A stretch of 64,000 bases of DNA from positions 34,724-98,723 of the forward strand of contig JAFBAK010000245.1 in assembly GCA_019247795.1 (NCBI GenBank). Reading direction: 5' to 3'. Source of the DNA: Hyphomicrobiales bacterium. Its GTDB lineage: Bacteria > Pseudomonadota > Alphaproteobacteria > Rhizobiales > Beijerinckiaceae. This document shows positions 23,809-40,943 of the stretch, one piece after another. Below the pieces are notes generated by a model. The model saw only the letters and a list, made by a program, of their open reading frames with translations. It made no database searches and was not told the DNA's origin. The first letter of the stretch is position 1. Every line of letters starts with the position of its first letter. Position numbers and translations under genes: made by a program.

Positions 23809-24579
23809 GTGCCTGACATGTCTTGCGCGCCCGCCCTCTTGATCGAGCATGTGACGCACGCTTATGGCGAACGCGTCGCGCTCGATGATGTGAGCTTCAC
23901 GGTCGCTCGCGGGAGTTGCACGGCGCTTCTCGGGCTTAATGGCGCCGGCAAGACCACTCTGTTCTCCCTCGTGACGAGGCTGTTCGCCGCACGACGCGGG
24001 CGGATAAGCGTGTTCGGGTTCGACATCGATCGCGATCCCGGCGAAGCGCTGCGGCGGCTCGGCGTCGTTTTCCAGGCGCGCACCCTCGATCTCGATCTGA
24101 GCGTCGCGCAAAATCTTCGCTACCACGCAGCCTTGCATGGTCTTGGCGGACGCGAAGCCAAGGCGCGCGGCGCAGAGATGCTGGCGCGCATGGAGCTTTC
24201 CGGACGCGCCGGGGAGAAGGCGCGCCATCTCTCCGGCGGACAGATGCGTCGCGTCGAGATCGCGCGAGCCTTGCTGCATGCTCCCCGCCTTCTCGTCCTC
24301 GATGAGCCGACGGTCGGTCTCGACATCAACTCGCGGGCCGGCATCTTGCGGCATCTCCGCGCCCTCGTGGCGCAAACGGGTCTAACCGTGCTGTGGGCGA
24401 CCCACCTGCTCGATGAAGTCGAGCCCACGGATGAGGTCGTCGTCCTGCACAAAGGCCGCATTCTCGCCACCGGCTCGGCGCAGGTCGTGATCGCGGCGCA
24501 AGGCAAGAAGGACATCGGCGGGGCGTTCTCGGCGCTAATCGCCGAGCCTGCGACCGCGGACGCGGAGTCACCGCAATGA
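23809..24579 (+). CDS. ABC transporter ATP-binding protein, PQQ-dependent-catabolism-associated type (LutE/PedB-like)
   Basis: Walker A LNGAGKTT, LSGGQMRRVEIARALL, DEPTVGLD; followed by ABC-2 permease. Confidence 0.8.
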   Translation: MPDMSCAPALLIEHVTHAYGERVALDDVSFTVARGSCTALLGLNGAGKTTLFSLVTRLFAARRGRISVFGFDIDRDPGEALRRLGVVFQARTLDLDLSVAQNLRYHAALHGLGGREAKARGAEMLARMELSGRAGEKARHLSGGQMRRVEIARALLHAPRLLVLDEPTVGLDINSRAGILRHLRALVAQTGLTVLWATHLLDEVEPTDEVVVLHKGRILATGSAQVVIAAQGKKDIGGAFSALIAEPATADAESPQ

Positions 24580-25463: not shown

Positions 25464-26453
25464 ATGCGACCCTTGCGCCTTCCCTTGTCTCGCCGCCTTT
25501 TCCTCGCAGCCATCGCGCTCGTCGCGGCGAAACCGGCGCGTGCCGAAAACATTATTCGGCTCGCAGCCCAGAAGACCGGTACCTTTGCGTGGGAACTCGA
25601 GATCATCGCCAATCACGGTCTCGACAAGTCGGCGGAAATCGCGATCGAGACGACGGAATTCGCCAGCCCTCAAGCAGCCGAGCTGGCGCTCCTCGGCGGC
25701 CAAGTCGACATCATCGTTTCCGACTGGCTCTACGTCTCGCGTGCCCGCTCGCTCGGCGAGCGTCTCGCCTTCTACCCTTATTCCTCGGCGATCGGCGCCA
25801 TCATGACGCCGCCCTCCTCCACGATCACGAGCTTGCGCGACCTCAAGGGCAGGACCCTTGCGGTCGCGGGAAGCGCTCTCGACAAGAGCTGGCTCATTGT
25901 CCAAGGCGCCGCGCTCCACGACGGGCTCGATCTCAAATCCGACGCGACGATCGTCTACGGCGCACCGTCGCTTCTCGCGGCCAAGGCACGACAAGGCGAA
26001 TTCGCCGCGAGCCTCAACTTTTGGAATTTCTGTGCCGAGCTCGAGGCCGAGGGTTTCCATCGTTTGGCCGGTGTGGAGGAATTGGCCGAAACGCTCGGCG
26101 CAACCGGGCCCCTCACAAATCTCGGATACGTGTTCAGCGAGGCATGGGCTCGCCGCAACGGAGCCGTTCTCGCGCGCTTTCTCGACATTTCGCGCAAGGC
26201 AAAAAACATTTTAGCCGAAAATCCTGAGGAATGGGAAAGGCTGAGGCCACGCTTGAACCTGCGTGATGCCGGCGCGCTCACGGTGCTTCGCCAACGTTAC
26301 GGGCAAGGCATTCCGCGCCGGTCCGTGGAAGCGGAGGAAGCCGACGCCCGCACGCTTTACGCCGTGCTCGCACGGCTCGGTGGCGCCGAGCTCGTCGGCA
26401 AGGCGAACGAGCTCGAGCCGGGCACCTTTTACAAGATCAACACGGGCGGGTAG
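25464..26453 (+). CDS. ABC transporter substrate-binding protein, NitT/TauT (SsuA/ThiY)-like
   Basis: Exported; IIRLAAQKTGTFAWELEIIANHGLDKSAEIAIETTEFASPQAAELALLGGQVDIIVSDWLYVSRAR. Confidence 0.78.
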   Translation: MRPLRLPLSRRLFLAAIALVAAKPARAENIIRLAAQKTGTFAWELEIIANHGLDKSAEIAIETTEFASPQAAELALLGGQVDIIVSDWLYVSRARSLGERLAFYPYSSAIGAIMTPPSSTITSLRDLKGRTLAVAGSALDKSWLIVQGAALHDGLDLKSDATIVYGAPSLLAAKARQGEFAASLNFWNFCAELEAEGFHRLAGVEELAETLGATGPLTNLGYVFSEAWARRNGAVLARFLDISRKAKNILAENPEEWERLRPRLNLRDAGALTVLRQRYGQGIPRRSVEAEEADARTLYAVLARLGGAELVGKANELEPGTFYKINTGG

Positions 26454-26526
26454 CTCGCACGATGGATTATCCACCCGCCTGCTCGCACCCCCTTCGCCGC
26501 AGGACGACAAAGGAGCTTTCGGCAGC

Positions 26527-27267
26527 GTGATCTGGCGCATCGCATCGCTTGCCGGATTCCTGCTCGCCTGGCAATTGGGCTCGAGCCTTGCAGGGGCCGC
26601 CATTCTGCCGTCCCCGGCGGCCGTGCTCATGGCGCTGTTGGAGGAGGCCCGCTCAGGCGCGCTCGCCCTCAATCTTCTGGCGACTCTCGCAAGAGTCGCG
26701 GCGGCCTTCACGGTTGCGATCCTCTTCGGTTCCGCGATCGGTTATGCGATGGGTCGTTCCGCGACTTTCGACCGGGTCGCCGATCCCTGGCTGATCTTGC
26801 TGCTCAACCTTCCAGCGCTCGTCATCATCCTTCTCGCCTATGTGTGGTTCGGCCTCACCGAGGCCGCCGCCGTGGGCGCCGTGGCCATCAATAAACTGCC
26901 GAACACCGTCGCCACCTTGCGCGAGGGCGCGCGCGCGCTCGATCCGGCGCTCGACGAAATGGGGCAGGCTTTCACTTTCGACCCATTGACGCGGGCTCGC
27001 CATATCGTCGTGCCGCAGCTTGCCCCCTATCTTGCGGCCGCAACCCGGACTGGCTTGTCGCTTGTCTGGAAGATCGTACTCGTCGTCGAGCTGATCGGCC
27101 GGCCGAACGGCGTCGGTTTTGCCATCGGCACCGCGTTCCAACTATTCGACGTTGCCCGCATTCTCGCCTACGGTCTTTGCTTCGTGGCGGTGATGTTGGC
27201 GATCGAAACATGCCTGGTGCAGCCCCTTGAGCGACATGCATCGCGTTGGCGAATCCGCAAAGCTTGA
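26527..27267 (+). CDS. ABC transporter permease, NitT/TauT type
   Basis: BPD_transp motif MGQAFTFDPLTRARHIVVPQLAPYLAAATRTGLSLVWKIVLVVEL; GTG start. Confidence 0.8.
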   Translation: MIWRIASLAGFLLAWQLGSSLAGAAILPSPAAVLMALLEEARSGALALNLLATLARVAAAFTVAILFGSAIGYAMGRSATFDRVADPWLILLLNLPALVIILLAYVWFGLTEAAAVGAVAINKLPNTVATLREGARALDPALDEMGQAFTFDPLTRARHIVVPQLAPYLAAATRTGLSLVWKIVLVVELIGRPNGVGFAIGTAFQLFDVARILAYGLCFVAVMLAIETCLVQPLERHASRWRIRKA

Positions 27268-27964
27268 AGTCTTCATCCGGAGGAAAGCGGTGCGGAGCGC
27301 GGCGGGCGAGCGCAAGGAAATTCTCGCCGACATCCGCTTTGCACTCGCGCCCGGAGAGGTCACCGCGCTTGTCGGACCTTCCGGCTCGGGCAAGACGACG
27401 CTCCTCAAGATCATCGCGGGGCTCGATCACGATTTCGAGGGCGAAGTGACCATCCCGGCCGAGCGCCTCGGCTTCGTCTTCCAGGAACCTCGCCTCCTTC
27501 CCTGGCGCACCGTCGAGGAGAATGTCAGGATTGCCGCGCCGCAGGCGAGCAATTCGGACTTGGAGCCGCTCTTCAACGCGCTCGGCCTTGGCCAGCACCG
27601 CCGGCATTTTCCGGGCGAATTGTCGCTCGGTCTTGCACGTCGGGCCGCTGTCGCGCGCGCTTTCGCCGTCCGCCCTGATTTGCTGCTGCTCGACGAACCG
27701 TTCGTCTCGCTCGACGAGACGCTGGCTCGACAGCTTCAGGAGGAACTCATCGCACTGGTCGAGAGAAGCTGCGTGACGAGCTTGCTTGTGACTCACGATA
27801 TCCTGGAGGCTGCGCGGCTCGTCGAACGCGTGATCGTCCTTGATGGACGGCCGGCACGAATGGTCGCCGATTTGGCGATCGAAAAGCCGCGCGCCCAGCG
27901 CTCGGCGACGTTCGTGAGCTCGATCGCCGACCGCATCCGCTCAACTCGGCTCACGACATCGTGA
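27236..27964 (+). CDS. ABC transporter ATP-binding protein, NitT/TauT type
   Basis: GPSGSGKTTLLKIIAGL, FVFQEPRLLPWRTVEENV, LLLDEPFVSLDE. Confidence 0.85.
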   Translation: MHRVGESAKLEVFIRRKAVRSAAGERKEILADIRFALAPGEVTALVGPSGSGKTTLLKIIAGLDHDFEGEVTIPAERLGFVFQEPRLLPWRTVEENVRIAAPQASNSDLEPLFNALGLGQHRRHFPGELSLGLARRAAVARAFAVRPDLLLLDEPFVSLDETLARQLQEELIALVERSCVTSLLVTHDILEAARLVERVIVLDGRPARMVADLAIEKPRAQRSATFVSSIADRIRSTRLTTS

Positions 27965-27987: not shown

Positions 27988-28518
27988 TCAATCGCTCGGG
28001 CAGGCGTAAACGGCGCGGACCTTGAGCGCGTAGTGCATCGCCGGATAGCCGTCGAACACGCCATTGATCAGGATCGTCTGCGTTTCTCCCGGCAGAACCG
28101 TGCCCCCGCCCGTGGCAGTCGTCTCGTCGAGATCCATCGTCGGGTAGGAGATCTCGACTTTCCGGATGATCTTGCCCGTCAGAATGTTGTGAACATCCCA
28201 GGTGAACGCGTGGGCATAGACGAGGAAGGAGGCGCTGGCCGACCGCAACGCCCTGAATTCCGCATCGGTGACCGGCTGCGGGTCACAATCCTCGAGCGTT
28301 CGGCCGATGCCGAGGGAAGCGCGTTTTGCGCGGCTTTCCTCCTCGCAATCGTCACGGCACGTCGTCATCTGGAAACGGATCATGTCGTCGGTGATGTCGG
28401 CGCCCTTGACGCGCTGCGCGATGCAGGCGCGAAAGCAGGTCTGCGCGCTTGCGTCTCCGATCCCACTCGACACGGCGAGCACCGCGAGAGCCAGAAACAT
28501 GAAGCGAGCGTGATACAT
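27988..28518 (-). CDS. Exported hypothetical protein
   Basis: Signal peptide (FMFLALAVLAVSSGIGDASAQ), Cys-rich N-part (CFRACIAQRV...MTTCRDDCEEESRAK). Confidence 0.65.
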   Translation of the reverse strand: MYHARFMFLALAVLAVSSGIGDASAQTCFRACIAQRVKGADITDDMIRFQMTTCRDDCEEESRAKRASLGIGRTLEDCDPQPVTDAEFRALRSASASFLVYAHAFTWDVHNILTGKIIRKVEISYPTMDLDETTATGGGTVLPGETQTILINGVFDGYPAMHYALKVRAVYACPSD

Positions 28519-28549: not shown

Positions 28550-28948
28550 CTATTTGCAATCGACGAGGTCGTGATCGTCGATCGAGAACACCTTGCCTTC
28601 TTTCACCTCGACACCACGCGCCGCGCAGGCCTTGCCGCTGGCGTAGACGATTTTTGCATCATACCGGCCCGACGAAATCCCCGTCACATCGAGCCTTTCG
28701 TCGTGATCAACGGACGCGTCCGGATCGTTCTCGCATTGATTCTTGCCGAAGCTCGAACTTCCGGCAGGCGCCAAGCGGAACTCCTTGATCGTGCCGGTCG
28801 TCAAGTTCCAAAAGCGGGTGCGGCTCGCTGCGTCCGCATCCCCCGCCACAAAGCTGAAACAGACAACGCACAGCGCCGCGAAGCCCGCGGCGCGTGAGAA
28901 TAACCGAGAAGTTCGGCAAGGCTGAAAAGACAATGGGGCGGGCGGCAT
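28550..28948 (-). CDS. Small exported hypothetical protein with DPDxxxxDxDE acidic motif
   Basis: Signal peptide; mature RTRFWNLTTGTIKEFRLAPAGSSSFGKNQCENDPDASVDHDERLDVTGISSGRYDAKIVYASGKACAARGVEVKEGKVFSIDDHDLVDCK. Confidence 0.7.
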   Translation of the reverse strand: MPPAPLSFQPCRTSRLFSRAAGFAALCVVCFSFVAGDADAASRTRFWNLTTGTIKEFRLAPAGSSSFGKNQCENDPDASVDHDERLDVTGISSGRYDAKIVYASGKACAARGVEVKEGKVFSIDDHDLVDCK

Positions 28949-28990: not shown

Positions 28991-29203
28991 TCATGTCTTG
29001 CGCTGCTGGTGCCCCGAATACTCGCAGTGCCAACGCATGATCGTCCAATTGGGGTGCTCGACGGCCCATTGCGCCATCGTGGGCTCTGCCTGCATGGCGC
29101 ATTTCTGGAGCGACACACTCGAATCGACGATGATGCGCTGATCCTCGCAAATATTGGCATTGGCCAACGAGCAGACGGTGAGAACGATTTCGAGGAATTC
29201 CAT
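28991..29203 (-). CDS. Small conserved hypothetical protein (about 70 aa)
   Basis: MEFLEIVLTVCSLANANICEDQRIIVDSSVSLQKCAMQAEPTMAQWAVEHPNWTIMRWHCEYSGHQQRKT. Confidence 0.65.
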   Translation of the reverse strand: MEFLEIVLTVCSLANANICEDQRIIVDSSVSLQKCAMQAEPTMAQWAVEHPNWTIMRWHCEYSGHQQRKT

Positions 29204-29334
29204 TTGCGCTCCTACCCCCGTGGCTGACCACAGGCCAAGGCTAACATCGGTTTCGTGCCGCCTGCAATTCAGCTCGCCCTCACGCTCGACAGTTATGCTC
29301 CTCCAGCGCAAAATGAAGACCGGGAACGTAAAAG

Positions 29335-30141
29335 ATGCATAATCGCCTAAGCTTGGCCTTCTCGGTCATCGTTGTGGTCCTTGCCGCGACCGGGAGTGCG
29401 CGAGCGCAGGATATGTTGCGCTTCGTCGATCTCGACAGCCCCGAGATGAAGAGCGCGGAAATGACGAGCAGCGAGCTCGACGCCTTGCTGCGATCATCGA
29501 CGCCATCGAAGCCGCTCGATCTCTCGAGCAAGCGGCTCTCCGGTCTCGACCTCGAGCGGCGTCCTCTTTCGGGCGTCGTGCTGCGCGCCGCAAAGCTCAA
29601 TCGCACCAAGCTCTCTGGTGCCAAGCTCGACCACGCCGTGCTCGATCAAGCGTGGCTGATCGGAGCCGATCTCAGCGGTGCCGACCTTTCGGGCGCCTCG
29701 TTGTTCGGTGCTCAACTTCAAGGCGCGAAACTCGACGGCGCCGATCTCAGGGGCGCTCGGCTCGCCGCCGACCTCTCGGGCGCAAGCCTCGCGGGCGCCA
29801 AGCTCGCCGGCGTGGACGCGAGCGCCGATATGCGCAATCAGTCGATGGGCCTCATGCGCGGCGTACTGCGATCGGCCAATCTCGAAGGAGCTGATCTGAG
29901 CGGTGCAAATCTCGCCCGCGCGGATCTGAGCTTCGCAGACCTGAAGCGTGCCAACCTTACCGGCTGCAATTTGGCAGGTGCCGATCTGAGCGGCGCCGAT
30001 CTCAGCGGCGCGAAACTCGGGGGTGCCAATCTCGGCGAAGCCGATCTGAGCTCGACGCTCTTGCCCGATGATGCCGCGCTCGAAGGAGCGCGCAACCTCG
30101 CTCAGGCCCGCAATCTCGATCGGGCCCGCCATTCGAGATAA
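29335..30141 (+). CDS. Exported pentapeptide-repeat protein
   Basis: Signal peptide ([15 protein letters not shown]); repeated A(D/N)LSGA units ([34 protein letters not shown]...). Confidence 0.88.
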
Positions 30142-32545: not shown

Positions 32546-33181
32546 ATGTGGGCACTCCAACTCCGAAAGCCGGCGGCGACCTTCGGGCTCGCCTGGACGA
32601 TTGCCTTTTGCGTGATCGGTGAACCGAGCGAGGCCGCGACGAGGCGCGATCCCGATTGGCCATGCCAGCAGATCAAGGTGCCGACGATTTCGGCTGCAGC
32701 CATATGGTCGGGCCCGCCGCTCGAAGGTCGTCCGTCCTGGAGTGCGGATCAGGAGGTGGCCGACCTTGTCGAGCGGCTTGCGGCACGCCGCACCTCGATC
32801 GAGGACGCGCAGAAGCTGATCGATGAGTTCAGCGACAAGGCGGGCTCGCAGAAGCGCGCGCGTCTTCTCCTCCTTTTTGCGGGCGTCTTCGAAGAACTCA
32901 ACAAGCAAAGAGATGAAGTGATCGGCGGTCTTGCGCGCGTGGCGCATCGGCAAGCGGCGTCCGCCGATCAGATCCGCGACGAAAACCATGATTTTCTCGA
33001 GCTGAGGAGCAAGGCGGACAGCGACCCGAACAAGCTCAAGGAGCTTGGCGACAAGCTCGATTGGGACACCCGCATCTTCGAGGATCGCAACCGATCGATC
33101 ACCTATGCGTGCGAGGTTCCGGTCCTGATCGAGCAGCGCCTCTTTGCCATCGCGAGGATGATCGAGCCGAAGGTGGAGTGA
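32546..33181 (+). CDS. Exported hypothetical protein of the PQQ/lanthanide-transport-like segment
   Basis: Signal-like N-terminus; DPDWPCQQIKVPTISAAAIWSGPPLEG...SWSADQEVADLVERLAARRTSIEDAQKLIDEF; downstream of YVTN gene. Confidence 0.65.
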   Translation: MWALQLRKPAATFGLAWTIAFCVIGEPSEAATRRDPDWPCQQIKVPTISAAAIWSGPPLEGRPSWSADQEVADLVERLAARRTSIEDAQKLIDEFSDKAGSQKRARLLLLFAGVFEELNKQRDEVIGGLARVAHRQAASADQIRDENHDFLELRSKADSDPNKLKELGDKLDWDTRIFEDRNRSITYACEVPVLIEQRLFAIARMIEPKVE

Positions 33182-35441: not shown

Positions 35442-37262
35442 TTATTGCGGGAGCGCGAACACCGTGAGCTGGCCGCCAAGCGCGGTGTATTGCTTGAGGC
35501 CCGCATAGCCGCCAACCGCGCCGAGACCCGCAGTCGGATCGGTAAGTCCGGCGGCGAGCCCGATGCCGGCCCAGCCACCGACGCCCGAGAGAACGGCGAC
35601 GTATTGCTTGTTGCCGTGCTCATAGGTCATCACGTTGCCGATGATGCCTGAGGGGGTCTTGAACTTGTAGAGTTCCTTGCCGGTGTGGGCGTCCACCGCC
35701 TTCAGGTAGCCTTCGAGCGTCCCATAGAAGACGACGCCGCCGGCCGTCGCGAGCGCTCCCGACCAAACCGAGAACTGCTCCTTGTCCGACCAGGCGATCT
35801 TCCCGGTCTTCCCGTCCCAGGCGATAAAGTTGCCCATATTCGTCTGGCCCGGAGGCGGATACATGGAGAGGGTCGCGCCCACGTAAGGCTGGCCCGCCGT
35901 GTAGCTCACCTTGAACGGCTCGTAATCCATGCAGACGTGGTTGGTCGGCACGTAGAACATGCCGGTCTCAGGCGAGTACGCCGCGGGTTGCTCGTCCTTG
36001 GAACCGAGCGCTGCCGGACACACGCCCTTGGTGTTCGCGTCCGGACCATTTTGGTCGGTGGAGTATTTCGATACGACGATCGGCCGCCCATAGGTCTTGG
36101 AGTTCTTGTCCATATCGACCTTGGTGGCCCAGTTCACATCCGGATCGTATTTCTCGGCCACCAGGAGCTCGCCGGTCGTACGGTCGAGCGTGTAGCCGAA
36201 GCCGTTGCGGTCGAAGTGAACGAGCGTCTTGCGGTTCTGTCCGCCGATATTCTGGTCGGCGAGGATCATCTCGTTGACGCCGTCATAGTCCCATTCGTCA
36301 TGGGGCGTCATCTGATAGACCCATTTCGCGACGCCGGTATCAACGTCACGCGCCCAAATGGTCATCGACCATTTGTTGTCGCCGGGCCGCTGCTTCGGAT
36401 TCCAGGTCGAGGGGTTGCCCGACCCGTAGTACATCAGGTTCAGCTGCGGATCATAGGAGAACCATCCCCACGTGTCGCCGCCACCGATCTTCCATTGATC
36501 GCCTTCCCAAGTCTTGAGGCTCGAATCGGCGCCAATCGGTTTACCAAGCTCGGTCGTCTTTTCGGGATCGACCTTGATGTCCGAATCAGGGCCTTCCGAA
36601 TAGGCGCGCCATGCCAGCTTGCCGTCACTGAGGTTATAGGCGCTGACCCAGCCGCGAACACCGAACTCGCCGCCGGACACGCCGATGAACACCTTGTCCT
36701 TGAATACGAAGGGCGCATCCGTGCCCGTCTCGCCCTTGCTCGGGTCGCCATCCTTCACCGACCAGACGACCTTTCCGCTCTTCGCGTCGAGCGCGACGAG
36801 GGTAGTGTCGGCTTGGTGCAGGAAGATCTTGCCATCCGCATAGGCGAGACCGCGATTGACCGTGTCGCAGCACATCACCGGAATGACATTCGGGTCCTGC
36901 TTCGGCTCATAGGACCACAGGATCTTGCCATCGTTGTTGATGTCGAGAGCATAGACCGTGTTGGGGAACGGCGCATGCAGATACATGACATCGCCGATCA
37001 CGAGAGGCGAACCTTCATGCCCGCGCAGCACGCCCGTCGAGAACGTCCACGCGACCTGAAGCTTGCCGACATTCTCCTTGTTGATTTGCTTCAACGAGGA
37101 GTACCGATGATTGGCATAATCGCCCGTCGGCATCACCCAGTCCTTCGGATTCTGGGCCAGTTTCGTCAAATCGTCATCCGCGACGGCGGACGACGTGATC
37201 ATCGCGGGCGTCGCGATGATCGCGCAGGCCCCTAGAAGGCCTGAGAGCCAATAGTTTCGCAT
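35442..37262 (-). CDS. xoxF: PQQ- and lanthanide-dependent methanol dehydrogenase XoxF
   Basis: 606-aa PQQ propeller; [17 protein letters not shown] (Cys-Cys), [12 protein letters not shown] with the additional Asp of Ln-type MDH. Confidence 0.96.
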
Positions 37263-37591
37263 GTGCTTCCTCCCGCTTCCGAGGCTCGAGCTTCCTCGCG
37301 CCGCGACGGACAAATCACTTGCCGCCGTCGGCGACAGCCACAGTTGGGAAATTTTTTTCTCCGGCAGCGTGTCACGACCTCAGCGAGGCATAACGGGGCA
37401 AGGCTGTCCGCCTCGCCAAGTCTTCGAGAACGAGAGCTCTCCCTAACACAATCGTCCTTGAAGCCGGAGACAAGGTCAGGCTATGCCGGTTCTAAAAGCG
37501 GTGCAACATTTTTGTTTCGGCGAAATCCACATTCATCGCGAAGTTCGGCCAATGGCGCGACAGCCCTGCCATGCATGTATCGCGCGGCAAT

Positions 37592-38621: not shown

Positions 38622-40943
38622 TCAAAACGTCGCCTTCACCCCCAGTTGCACGCTGAGCGGCGGCCCCAGCGTGAATGACCGCGGATTTGTCAGGTTGAGA
38701 AATGGGACCGCGATGGTGCTCGCGAGAATGCCGAACGTCTTGTAGCGCGTGTCGAAAATATTGCCGGCGAGAGCATAGACCTGCGCGTTCGGGGTCACCT
38801 GATAAGAAGCGTGAAGATTGGCCACGGCATACCCCGGCACCTTGCCGAGAAGGTTGGCTTGATCGCCGCTCAGGAATTGGCCGCTTGCCGCGACTACGTC
38901 ACCACCCACAGTGAGCTTGTCGGTAAGGCGGTAATCCACGCCGATATTGAGCTTGTTGCGCGGCAAGGTCGGGATGCGGTCGCCCGGCCGCACGAAGATG
39001 TCCCCATTGGCATCGGCGAATGGGTTGTTGGGCGAGGCGAGCGTGATGTGGCTCCGGAAAGTCGCATCGAGAAAGCTGTAGCGCGCGTAAGCCGACCATT
39101 TGTCATCGGTGTATTTCAGCGCGAGCTCGACACCTTGCCGCCGCGTGCGTCCGACGTTCTGGAAGAAGCCGAAGCCGGTAATTTCGCTCGGCACGCTCAA
39201 GATGTCGTGATTGTTCGTGGCGCGAAAGAAGCCGGCGCTCCAATCGAAGCGGCCCGGCAATTGCGGCATCGCGAATTTTCCCCGAAGCCCACCTTCGAAG
39301 GTTTGCGAAACGACCTGCCGCAGATGCGGATCGGAAACCAGGAAGTTGTCGATAATGCAGGGGTGGTTCGGATCGGCGCAGCCGAGCTCGAGCGGCGTCG
39401 GGGCGCGGTTCGCTTCCGAATAGCCGCCATAAAGCGTGATATCGGGCGTCAGCTTGTAGGTGGCACCGATTAGCGGATTGAGGTGCGAGTAGTCGTTGTT
39501 GCCGTTCAGTGCGGTGCCGAGGCGATCGACGAGAGAAATGTTCGCGACGTTGTAGCGGGCGCCGGCCGTGACGGTCAGGCGATCCGTGACGTCGAAGGCA
39601 TCGAGGGCGTAGAGGCCGTAATAGGTATTGGTCGCCCTGAGGCTCGCAGGCGCATCATCTCCGGCCGGCTCGTCGATTATCGTGCCGAACCCTGCAACGG
39701 TAAGGTCCGGTTGGATGACGCCGAGCTCGCTCGAGGCAAGGAAGCTCGTGACCGCATGATCGACGCTCGCGCCCACCATCAAGCGGTTGTTGAAGCCGCC
39801 GATGTCGTGAGTGCTCGTCCCCTGCAAAGACGCGCCTTCGCCGAACGACGAGGTGTGCGTGCGGTCGATTTCTCCGGCGACCCCGCCATTCAGCGTGTCG
39901 GGAACGAGGTTGCCGCTGCTGTCGGTGAGGAGCGTCTGCGGATCGCCGAAACACAAAAGCCCGGGATTGGTGGTCGGATCGCAGGACTGAGCTTGGGACG
40001 GGTTGCCGTCATTGTGCTGCATGCGGAAAGATCGGACATAGGCATTGCCCTCGACCTTCAGCGTGTCGGTGACATCGACCTTGCCGTTGAGGTTCGCCAT
40101 CCAGGCATCGTCATGCGTATTCTGGGGGCCGGTAAAAACCGACGCTTTGCGGATCGCGAGGAGCTCGGCGGGGGTCGGGCCGAGATTGCCGAGATGCGAG
40201 GAGCCCTGGCTGATGCTCAGGTGAACCTCGGCCGCTTCCGCCTTGTACCCGAGATCGGAGTAGAAGCGGCGAAGCTGCGAGCGTGAATAGTCCCGCCAGC
40301 CCGCATCGTTGATGCCCTCGCCCGCGACATAAAGAGAGAAATTGCCGACCTGCTTGCCGAATTGGAACGATGCGAGCCGGCGTCCGTAGCTGCCGATCTG
40401 CACATTCGCTTCGCCACCCTGATAGGTGAAGCCATTCTTCATCGTGAGGACGACGGCGCCGCCGAGCGCATTGAGGCCGAAGGCCGGATTGTTCGACACG
40501 ATCTGCGTCTGATCGATGGCGTTCGTCGGGATGAGATCCCAATTCACGATGTCGCCGAAGGCTTCGTTGATTCGAACCCCATTCTGGTACACGGCAAGAC
40601 CTTGGGGCGTGCCGCTCACGGGGGAGGCATCAAAGCCCCGATAGTTCACGTCAGGCTGATACTCATTCCCCGTGACGCTGTTCACCGTCACGCTCGAAAG
40701 CCTTTGGTCGAGCGCTTTGGCGATCGTCGAGCCGTTCGTTTCGGCGATGTCGCCGGCCGAAACGGAGCGCACCGCGGCCGGCACCTTGTCCGACGCGACG
40801 CCCGCGCCCGTCGGCGCCGTTGCCACGACTTCGATCTCGGGCAGCGCGACCGCACCCCCGGACGGAGCGTTCGTCGCGTTTTGCGCATAGCTGATGCAAG
40901 GAAACAGCGTCGTCAGGACGACGCCGGCCAAAAGCCGCCTCAT
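38622..40943 (-). CDS. TonB-dependent receptor (LutH-like candidate)
   Basis: Signal peptide; plug domain (LPEIEVVATAPTG...ALDQRLSSVTVNSVTGNEYQPDVNYRGFDASPVSGTPQGLAVYQNGVRINEAFGDIVNWDLIP), C-terminal VQLGVKATF. Confidence 0.88.
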   Translation of the reverse strand: MRRLLAGVVLTTLFPCISYAQNATNAPSGGAVALPEIEVVATAPTGAGVASDKVPAAVRSVSAGDIAETNGSTIAKALDQRLSSVTVNSVTGNEYQPDVNYRGFDASPVSGTPQGLAVYQNGVRINEAFGDIVNWDLIPTNAIDQTQIVSNNPAFGLNALGGAVVLTMKNGFTYQGGEANVQIGSYGRRLASFQFGKQVGNFSLYVAGEGINDAGWRDYSRSQLRRFYSDLGYKAEAAEVHLSISQGSSHLGNLGPTPAELLAIRKASVFTGPQNTHDDAWMANLNGKVDVTDTLKVEGNAYVRSFRMQHNDGNPSQAQSCDPTTNPGLLCFGDPQTLLTDSSGNLVPDTLNGGVAGEIDRTHTSSFGEGASLQGTSTHDIGGFNNRLMVGASVDHAVTSFLASSELGVIQPDLTVAGFGTIIDEPAGDDAPASLRATNTYYGLYALDAFDVTDRLTVTAGARYNVANISLVDRLGTALNGNNDYSHLNPLIGATYKLTPDITLYGGYSEANRAPTPLELGCADPNHPCIIDNFLVSDPHLRQVVSQTFEGGLRGKFAMPQLPGRFDWSAGFFRATNNHDILSVPSEITGFGFFQNVGRTRRQGVELALKYTDDKWSAYARYSFLDATFRSHITLASPNNPFADANGDIFVRPGDRIPTLPRNKLNIGVDYRLTDKLTVGGDVVAASGQFLSGDQANLLGKVPGYAVANLHASYQVTPNAQVYALAGNIFDTRYKTFGILASTIAVPFLNLTNPRSFTLGPPLSVQLGVKATF

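Follow-up and report, generated by a model that had tools for sequence, protein, structure and literature searches.

A small, predicted beta-sandwich protein with a conserved EF-hand-like loop, encoded among lanthanide and PQQ genes, as a candidate lanthanide-handling family

A gene at 28550-28948 on the minus strand of the window (the whole 64,000-nucleotide stretch of DNA analysed, to which the coordinates refer) encodes a 132-residue protein with a signal-like N-terminus, a predicted small beta-sandwich fold and an acidic, EF-hand-like loop. Its family is a strong candidate for a new lanthanide-handling protein. We think it somewhat probable that the protein acts as a periplasmic metal-binding accessory of the lanthanide/PQQ alcohol-oxidation system, with Ln3+, possibly Ca2+, as its metal. 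Judged by sequence, the family is uncharacterised: searches of Pfam, NCBIfam and PDB sequences with the protein returned no match, and no hypothetical protein of this type turned up in the literature searched.

A sequence-only reading had described the open reading frame as a small exported-looking protein, which agrees with its length and N-terminus. Its wider interpretation survived in part. The exported appearance, the conserved acidic cluster and the gene linkage were borne out, while an analogy with the prolines of lanmodulin and the notion of a shortened EF hand were not.

A conserved acidic loop in EF-hand register

The N-terminus consists of a hydrophobic segment followed by an A-x-A-type junction, RTSRLFSRAAGFAALCVVCFSFVAGDADA/ASRTR. 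Residues 1-40 (28829-28948, minus strand) are predicted with low pLDDT and are not conserved in the family alignment. This segment reads as a Sec-type signal peptide with cleavage probably near DADA/ASRTR, which would leave a mature part of about 92 residues. Two cysteines, C108 and C131 (span 28556-28627, minus strand), are invariant in the subfamily (36/36 each) and likely form a disulfide.

A scan of contigs with the single protein yielded two genus-mates only and was replaced by whole-genome searches. Within the same family, 37 of 149 genomes carried homologues (36 without a divergent match in genome G330); across the order 11 of 199 genomes did, with two remote matches among them. Across the class, 5 of 385 genomes gave homologues, three being real members, among them one outside the order (G692). 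A phylum-wide search placed homologues almost exclusively within the protein's own order. The family alignment comprises 36 homologues from 19 genera, with identities down to 35%.

The acidic stretch of the earlier reading is present, although the coordinates given for it, 28691-28729, span only N74-L86 and omit C72 and E73; the segment C72-L86, CENDPDASVDHDERL, occupies 28691-28735 on the minus strand. Five acidic residues within ten occur in 26% of shuffles of the protein's composition and are not significant alone, whereas the exact pattern D.D...D.DE appears in 0.04% of them. Conservation is a more telling test of the stretch. Among the 36 homologues, D75 and E84 are invariant (36/36 each), D83 is kept in 35 with one Asn, D77 in 34 with one Glu and one Asn, and position 81 holds Asp in 28 and Glu in 8. 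All five acids are thus invariant or conservatively replaced, and the cluster is conserved like a functional site.

The loop reads best, from the alignment, as a 12-residue EF-hand-like loop formed by residues 73-84, ENDPDASVDHDE (28697-28732, minus strand). The family consensus over these residues, x-N-D-K-D-G-[ST]-V-D-x-D-E, aligns without gaps to a 12-residue EF-hand loop, with D75, D77, D81 and E84 at positions 3, 5, 9 and 12 and an extra acid, D83, at position 11. Acidic residues or Asn therefore occupy positions 3, 5, 9 and 12 and a hydrophobic residue position 8 (residue 80, Val or Ile in 35/36). Position 2 (residue 74) is Asn in 28/36, position 6 (residue 78) is Gly in 20/36 and Ala in the window protein, and position 7 is S79. 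Position 1 is degenerate, being Glu in 4/36 including the window protein and otherwise Lys, Leu, Ala, Val or Gln. The loop is accordingly of full length rather than shortened by two residues, as the sequence-only reading had it. The proposed lanmodulin proline analogy fails as well, since Pro76 is scarce (5/36, with Lys in 21/36) and falls at EF position 4, not 2.

A relaxed EF-hand pattern that accepts any residue at position 1 matches 35 of the 36 members at the same place; among shuffled sequences about 8% match it. None of the 36 satisfies the complete PROSITE pattern, since they lack the Asp that it demands at position 1 and mostly have Arg as residue 13. Ca2+ binding by EF-hand-type loops in a helix-loop-strand setting has precedent, and placing such a loop between two of the beta-strands of CD2 gave that protein a site (PMC3123361). 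The protein resembles the Dx[DN]xDG calcium loops found outside EF-hand proteins, in that an EF-hand-like loop is set in a non-EF-hand fold, here as a short helix-loop-strand. Unlike those loops, most members of the family lack the first Asp and carry the additional Asp at position 11.

Predicted fold and relation to other proteins

AlphaFold2, run on the family alignment, modelled the mature protein at a pLDDT of about 97 as a small beta-sandwich of six strands (residues 44-49, 54-61, 84-88, 94-102, 107-115 and 120-124) with a short helix at 71-74, and the acidic stretch sits in one loop of this model. A structure search of the PDB with the model gave no match at E < 1e-3. The best Foldseek matches were 2mca and transthyretin-like domains (top E 1.4e-3), and PDB profile matches pointed to cellulosome X-modules (E 0.003). 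We do not take any of these as the identity of the protein, as such values indicate just a small beta-sandwich.

Profile matches and a common strand order, seen in an AlphaFold2 model of paralogue L155, place the protein in an unnamed superfamily of periplasmic beta-sandwich proteins. We compared it with 26 paralogue loci (L022, L023, L087, L153-L155 and L186-L205). The paralogues share the strand order and a conserved framework of N48, Y/W/F96 and D97, but they lack both the acidic quintet and linkage to lanthanide or PQQ genes. Their loop is mostly about 3 residues shorter and ends in a Gly-containing turn; position 83 is Gly in 23/26 and D75 corresponds to a gap in 21/26. As the paralogue loops are mostly shorter and lack the quintet, the subfamily seems to have gained its acidic loop by insertion and substitution.

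The literature surveyed names three families of small periplasmic lanthanide-binding proteins, lanmodulin, landiscernin and lanpepsy (PMC11996626). Lanmodulin is likewise small, periplasmic and linked to lut and xox genes; it co-occurs with the present family, is sometimes encoded adjacent to it, and shares with it an EF-hand-type D-x-D-G-[ST]-[VIL]-D-x-x-E loop. However, lanmodulin is all-helical and has several EF hands with Pro at position 2, in contrast to the predicted beta-sandwich with one loop and no conserved Pro. Fold, single loop and absent homology rule out that the protein is a lanmodulin, and BLASTP against Mex-LanM gave E 0.05 for a single pair, with local EF-loop similarity only.

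Landiscernin (LanD/LutD, PDB 9c8w) is also small and periplasmic and is itself a known lanthanide binder of the lut set, but it has about 60 residues, is encoded between lutB and lutE and shows no homology to the family. LutD of locus L109 matches 9c8w at 2e-15, whereas neither our protein nor its profile does so, and landiscernin was rejected as its identity. A profile search of lut loci L108-L112, including the lutB-lutE interval, found no homologue of the protein. LutC was rejected too: the LutC encoded in lut intervals of the M. extorquens type is another protein, which on visual inspection resembles a cupredoxin. LanPepSY (LanP), a periplasmic lanthanide binder of methylotrophs, has two PepSY domains (PMC12482762); the family has none, one of 36 members reaching E 0.32 to PepSY_2, which is noise.

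Gene neighbourhood, linkage and co-occurrence

The sequence-only reading had placed the gene close to PQQ- and lanthanide-associated ABC genes, and this is confirmed. It lies between a PQQ block, comprising pqqB (20111), pqqC, pqqE, a cytochrome gene and genes for a LutE-like ABC ATPase (23809-24579, plus strand) and a LutF-like permease (TIGR03861; 24576-25436, plus), and a group of lutA-, lutB- and lutG-like genes with xoxJ, xoxG, xoxF and a receptor gene. This second group encodes a LutA-like substrate-binding protein (TIGR03863; 30296-31540, plus), a LutB-like beta-propeller (TIGR03866; 31525-32529, plus), a LutG-like exported protein (32546-33181, plus), a XoxF-type PQQ dehydrogenase with the lanthanide-type WDYD motif (35442-37313, minus) and a LutH-like TonB-dependent receptor (38625-40937, minus; 41% over 838 aa). 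We assigned the lut names from homology and from gene order. The corresponding genes of the Methylobacterium-like loci L108-L110 and L112 follow one another as lutA-lutB-(lutC-lutD)-lutE-lutF-lutG, with lutH read from L109, an arrangement that matches M. extorquens (PMC7391723). Between 20000 and 41000 of the window no lutC, lutD or lanM was detectable despite the lutA-, B-, E-, F-, G- and H-like genes; the lanM of this genome lies on another contig (G000:C379:6214-6516).

Several further genes adjoin the locus. A Cys-rich exported protein of 176 residues is encoded downstream after a 31-bp gap (27988-28518, minus); it has no Pfam match and was found only in the genus of the window. Upstream lies a small open reading frame, called as 106 residues with a true start that is probably internal (28991-29311, minus), and 38-44% similar frames occur near the homologous gene in Bradyrhizobium-like genomes. 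An exported pentapeptide-repeat protein (29335-30141) also adjoins the gene, with relatives 53-58% identical beside its homologues in Bradyrhizobium-like L014, L015 and L019. A second ABC system (25464-27964; NMT1-like binding protein, permease and ATPase) separates the PQQ/lut genes from our gene, accompanies it in Bradyrhizobium-like L014-L017 and L019 and in L056, L064, L072 and L083, and is possibly an importer of a lanthanophore, PQQ or a cofactor.

Linkage was scored with a marker set of xoxF, xoxJ, pqqB/C/E, lutA/B/F/G, LutH and LanM, matched at E < 1e-20 within about 10 kb. Of the 43 acidic-loop loci, 33 have at least one marker nearby; they represent 14 of 19 genera and differ in arrangement. 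By comparison, markers were found in 1 of 20 random windows (20 kb each, at arbitrary places in carrier genomes) and at 0/26 paralogue loci, a count limited by a few short contigs; the Fisher values of 5e-8 and 4e-11 overstate independence, as the genomes are related. A lanM gene lies about 50-200 bp from the homologue in L062, L073 and L077 and about 1.5-2.2 kb away in L014, L016 and L017, and a LutH-like receptor gene within 10 kb in six loci.

Across the 149 genomes, LutA (TIGR03863) is present in 35/36 carriers vs 34/113 others and LanM in 25/36 carriers vs 15/113 others, the LanM association being weaker within LutA genomes (p = 0.01). The gene is thus linked to, or co-occurs with, genes for lanthanide-dependent alcohol dehydrogenase, lanthanide uptake or lanM. 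Homologues are missing from most Methylobacterium-like genomes with lut clusters, which counts against the role proposed below.

Proposed role and rival explanations

We propose that a common small periplasmic beta-sandwich may have acquired an EF-hand-like site by insertion of about three residues into one inter-strand loop and acidification of that loop. The protein would be exported, fold as a disulfide-bonded sandwich and hold one metal ion in loop 73-84, with D75, D77, D81 and E84 as putative ligands and D83 or N74 substituting for the missing position 1. The setting, with xoxF, lut import genes and lanM as neighbours, makes Ln3+ the likeliest metal. Most likely the protein would bind Ln3+ after TonB-dependent import and either buffer it or pass it to XoxF, LutA or lanmodulin in the periplasm.

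A further-reaching version is more tentative, and we hold it to be possible rather than probable. The proteins could form a new, structurally independent family of lanthanide binders found in nature, whose EF-hand-like loop came about by insertion into a beta-sandwich and which would be the main periplasmic lanthanide carrier where lanM is lacking; lanM went undetected in 11 of 36 carriers. If true, the use of an EF-hand-like loop for lanthanides would have arisen by a second route, on a different scaffold. The family would also supply a part that the lanthanide pathway of Hyphomicrobiales lacks so far, also in genomes with no detectable lanM, and offer a small, probably disulfide-bonded, single-site scaffold for rare-earth separation work.

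The main rival is Ca2+ binding, by which the loop would stabilise the protein or serve general PQQ-dehydrogenase maturation, making the protein an accessory of PQQ alcohol dehydrogenases instead of a lanthanide handler. Ca2+ is the metal usually bound by EF-hand-like loops across different folds (PMC3123361). Among the linked genes, many belong to the pqq set or to PQQ alcohol dehydrogenase systems in general, and two neighbouring dehydrogenases (L077 and L080) lack the lanthanide-diagnostic Asp and are Ca-type. However, 12 of the 14 PQQ dehydrogenases near homologues carry an Asp aligned to the lanthanide-diagnostic Asp of XoxF, the adjacency of lanM and the co-occurrence with LutA and LanM speak for lanthanides, and the extra Asp at position 11 has no generic reason under a Ca2+ role, which we therefore consider rather unlikely. 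Small periplasmic beta-sandwich proteins are frequently adaptors, and the second rival makes the acidic loop a metal-free docking surface for a basic partner such as XoxG, XoxJ, LutA or XoxF. The lack of conservation at EF position 1 fits this explanation, as does R85, which adjoins the acids and is conserved in 31/36; yet the spacing of the acids and the hydrophobic position 8 obey the EF-hand rule, unneeded for a docking patch, and we judge docking improbable.

We give very little credence to the protein being unrelated to metals or lanthanides, with the loop a structural turn and the linkage an inherited neighbourhood. Markers are indeed absent near 10 of the 43 loci, plus L152; the unlinked loci include the whole genus g137 and L076, where the homologue lies by rph, as well as L018, L020, L021, L059, L085 and L152. 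Against this stand the recurrence of linkage in 14 genera in different arrangements, its absence from the paralogue loci and the nesting of carriers among LutA-bearing genomes.

Six loci (L068, L069, L070, L072, L074 and L082), whose genomes gave no LanM match at E 1e-6, encode PQQ dehydrogenases just 31-34% identical to XoxF. These enzymes carry WD[LF]DAV or WDLDSV at the lanthanide-diagnostic site, and their genes adjoin a divergent lutA/lutB set.
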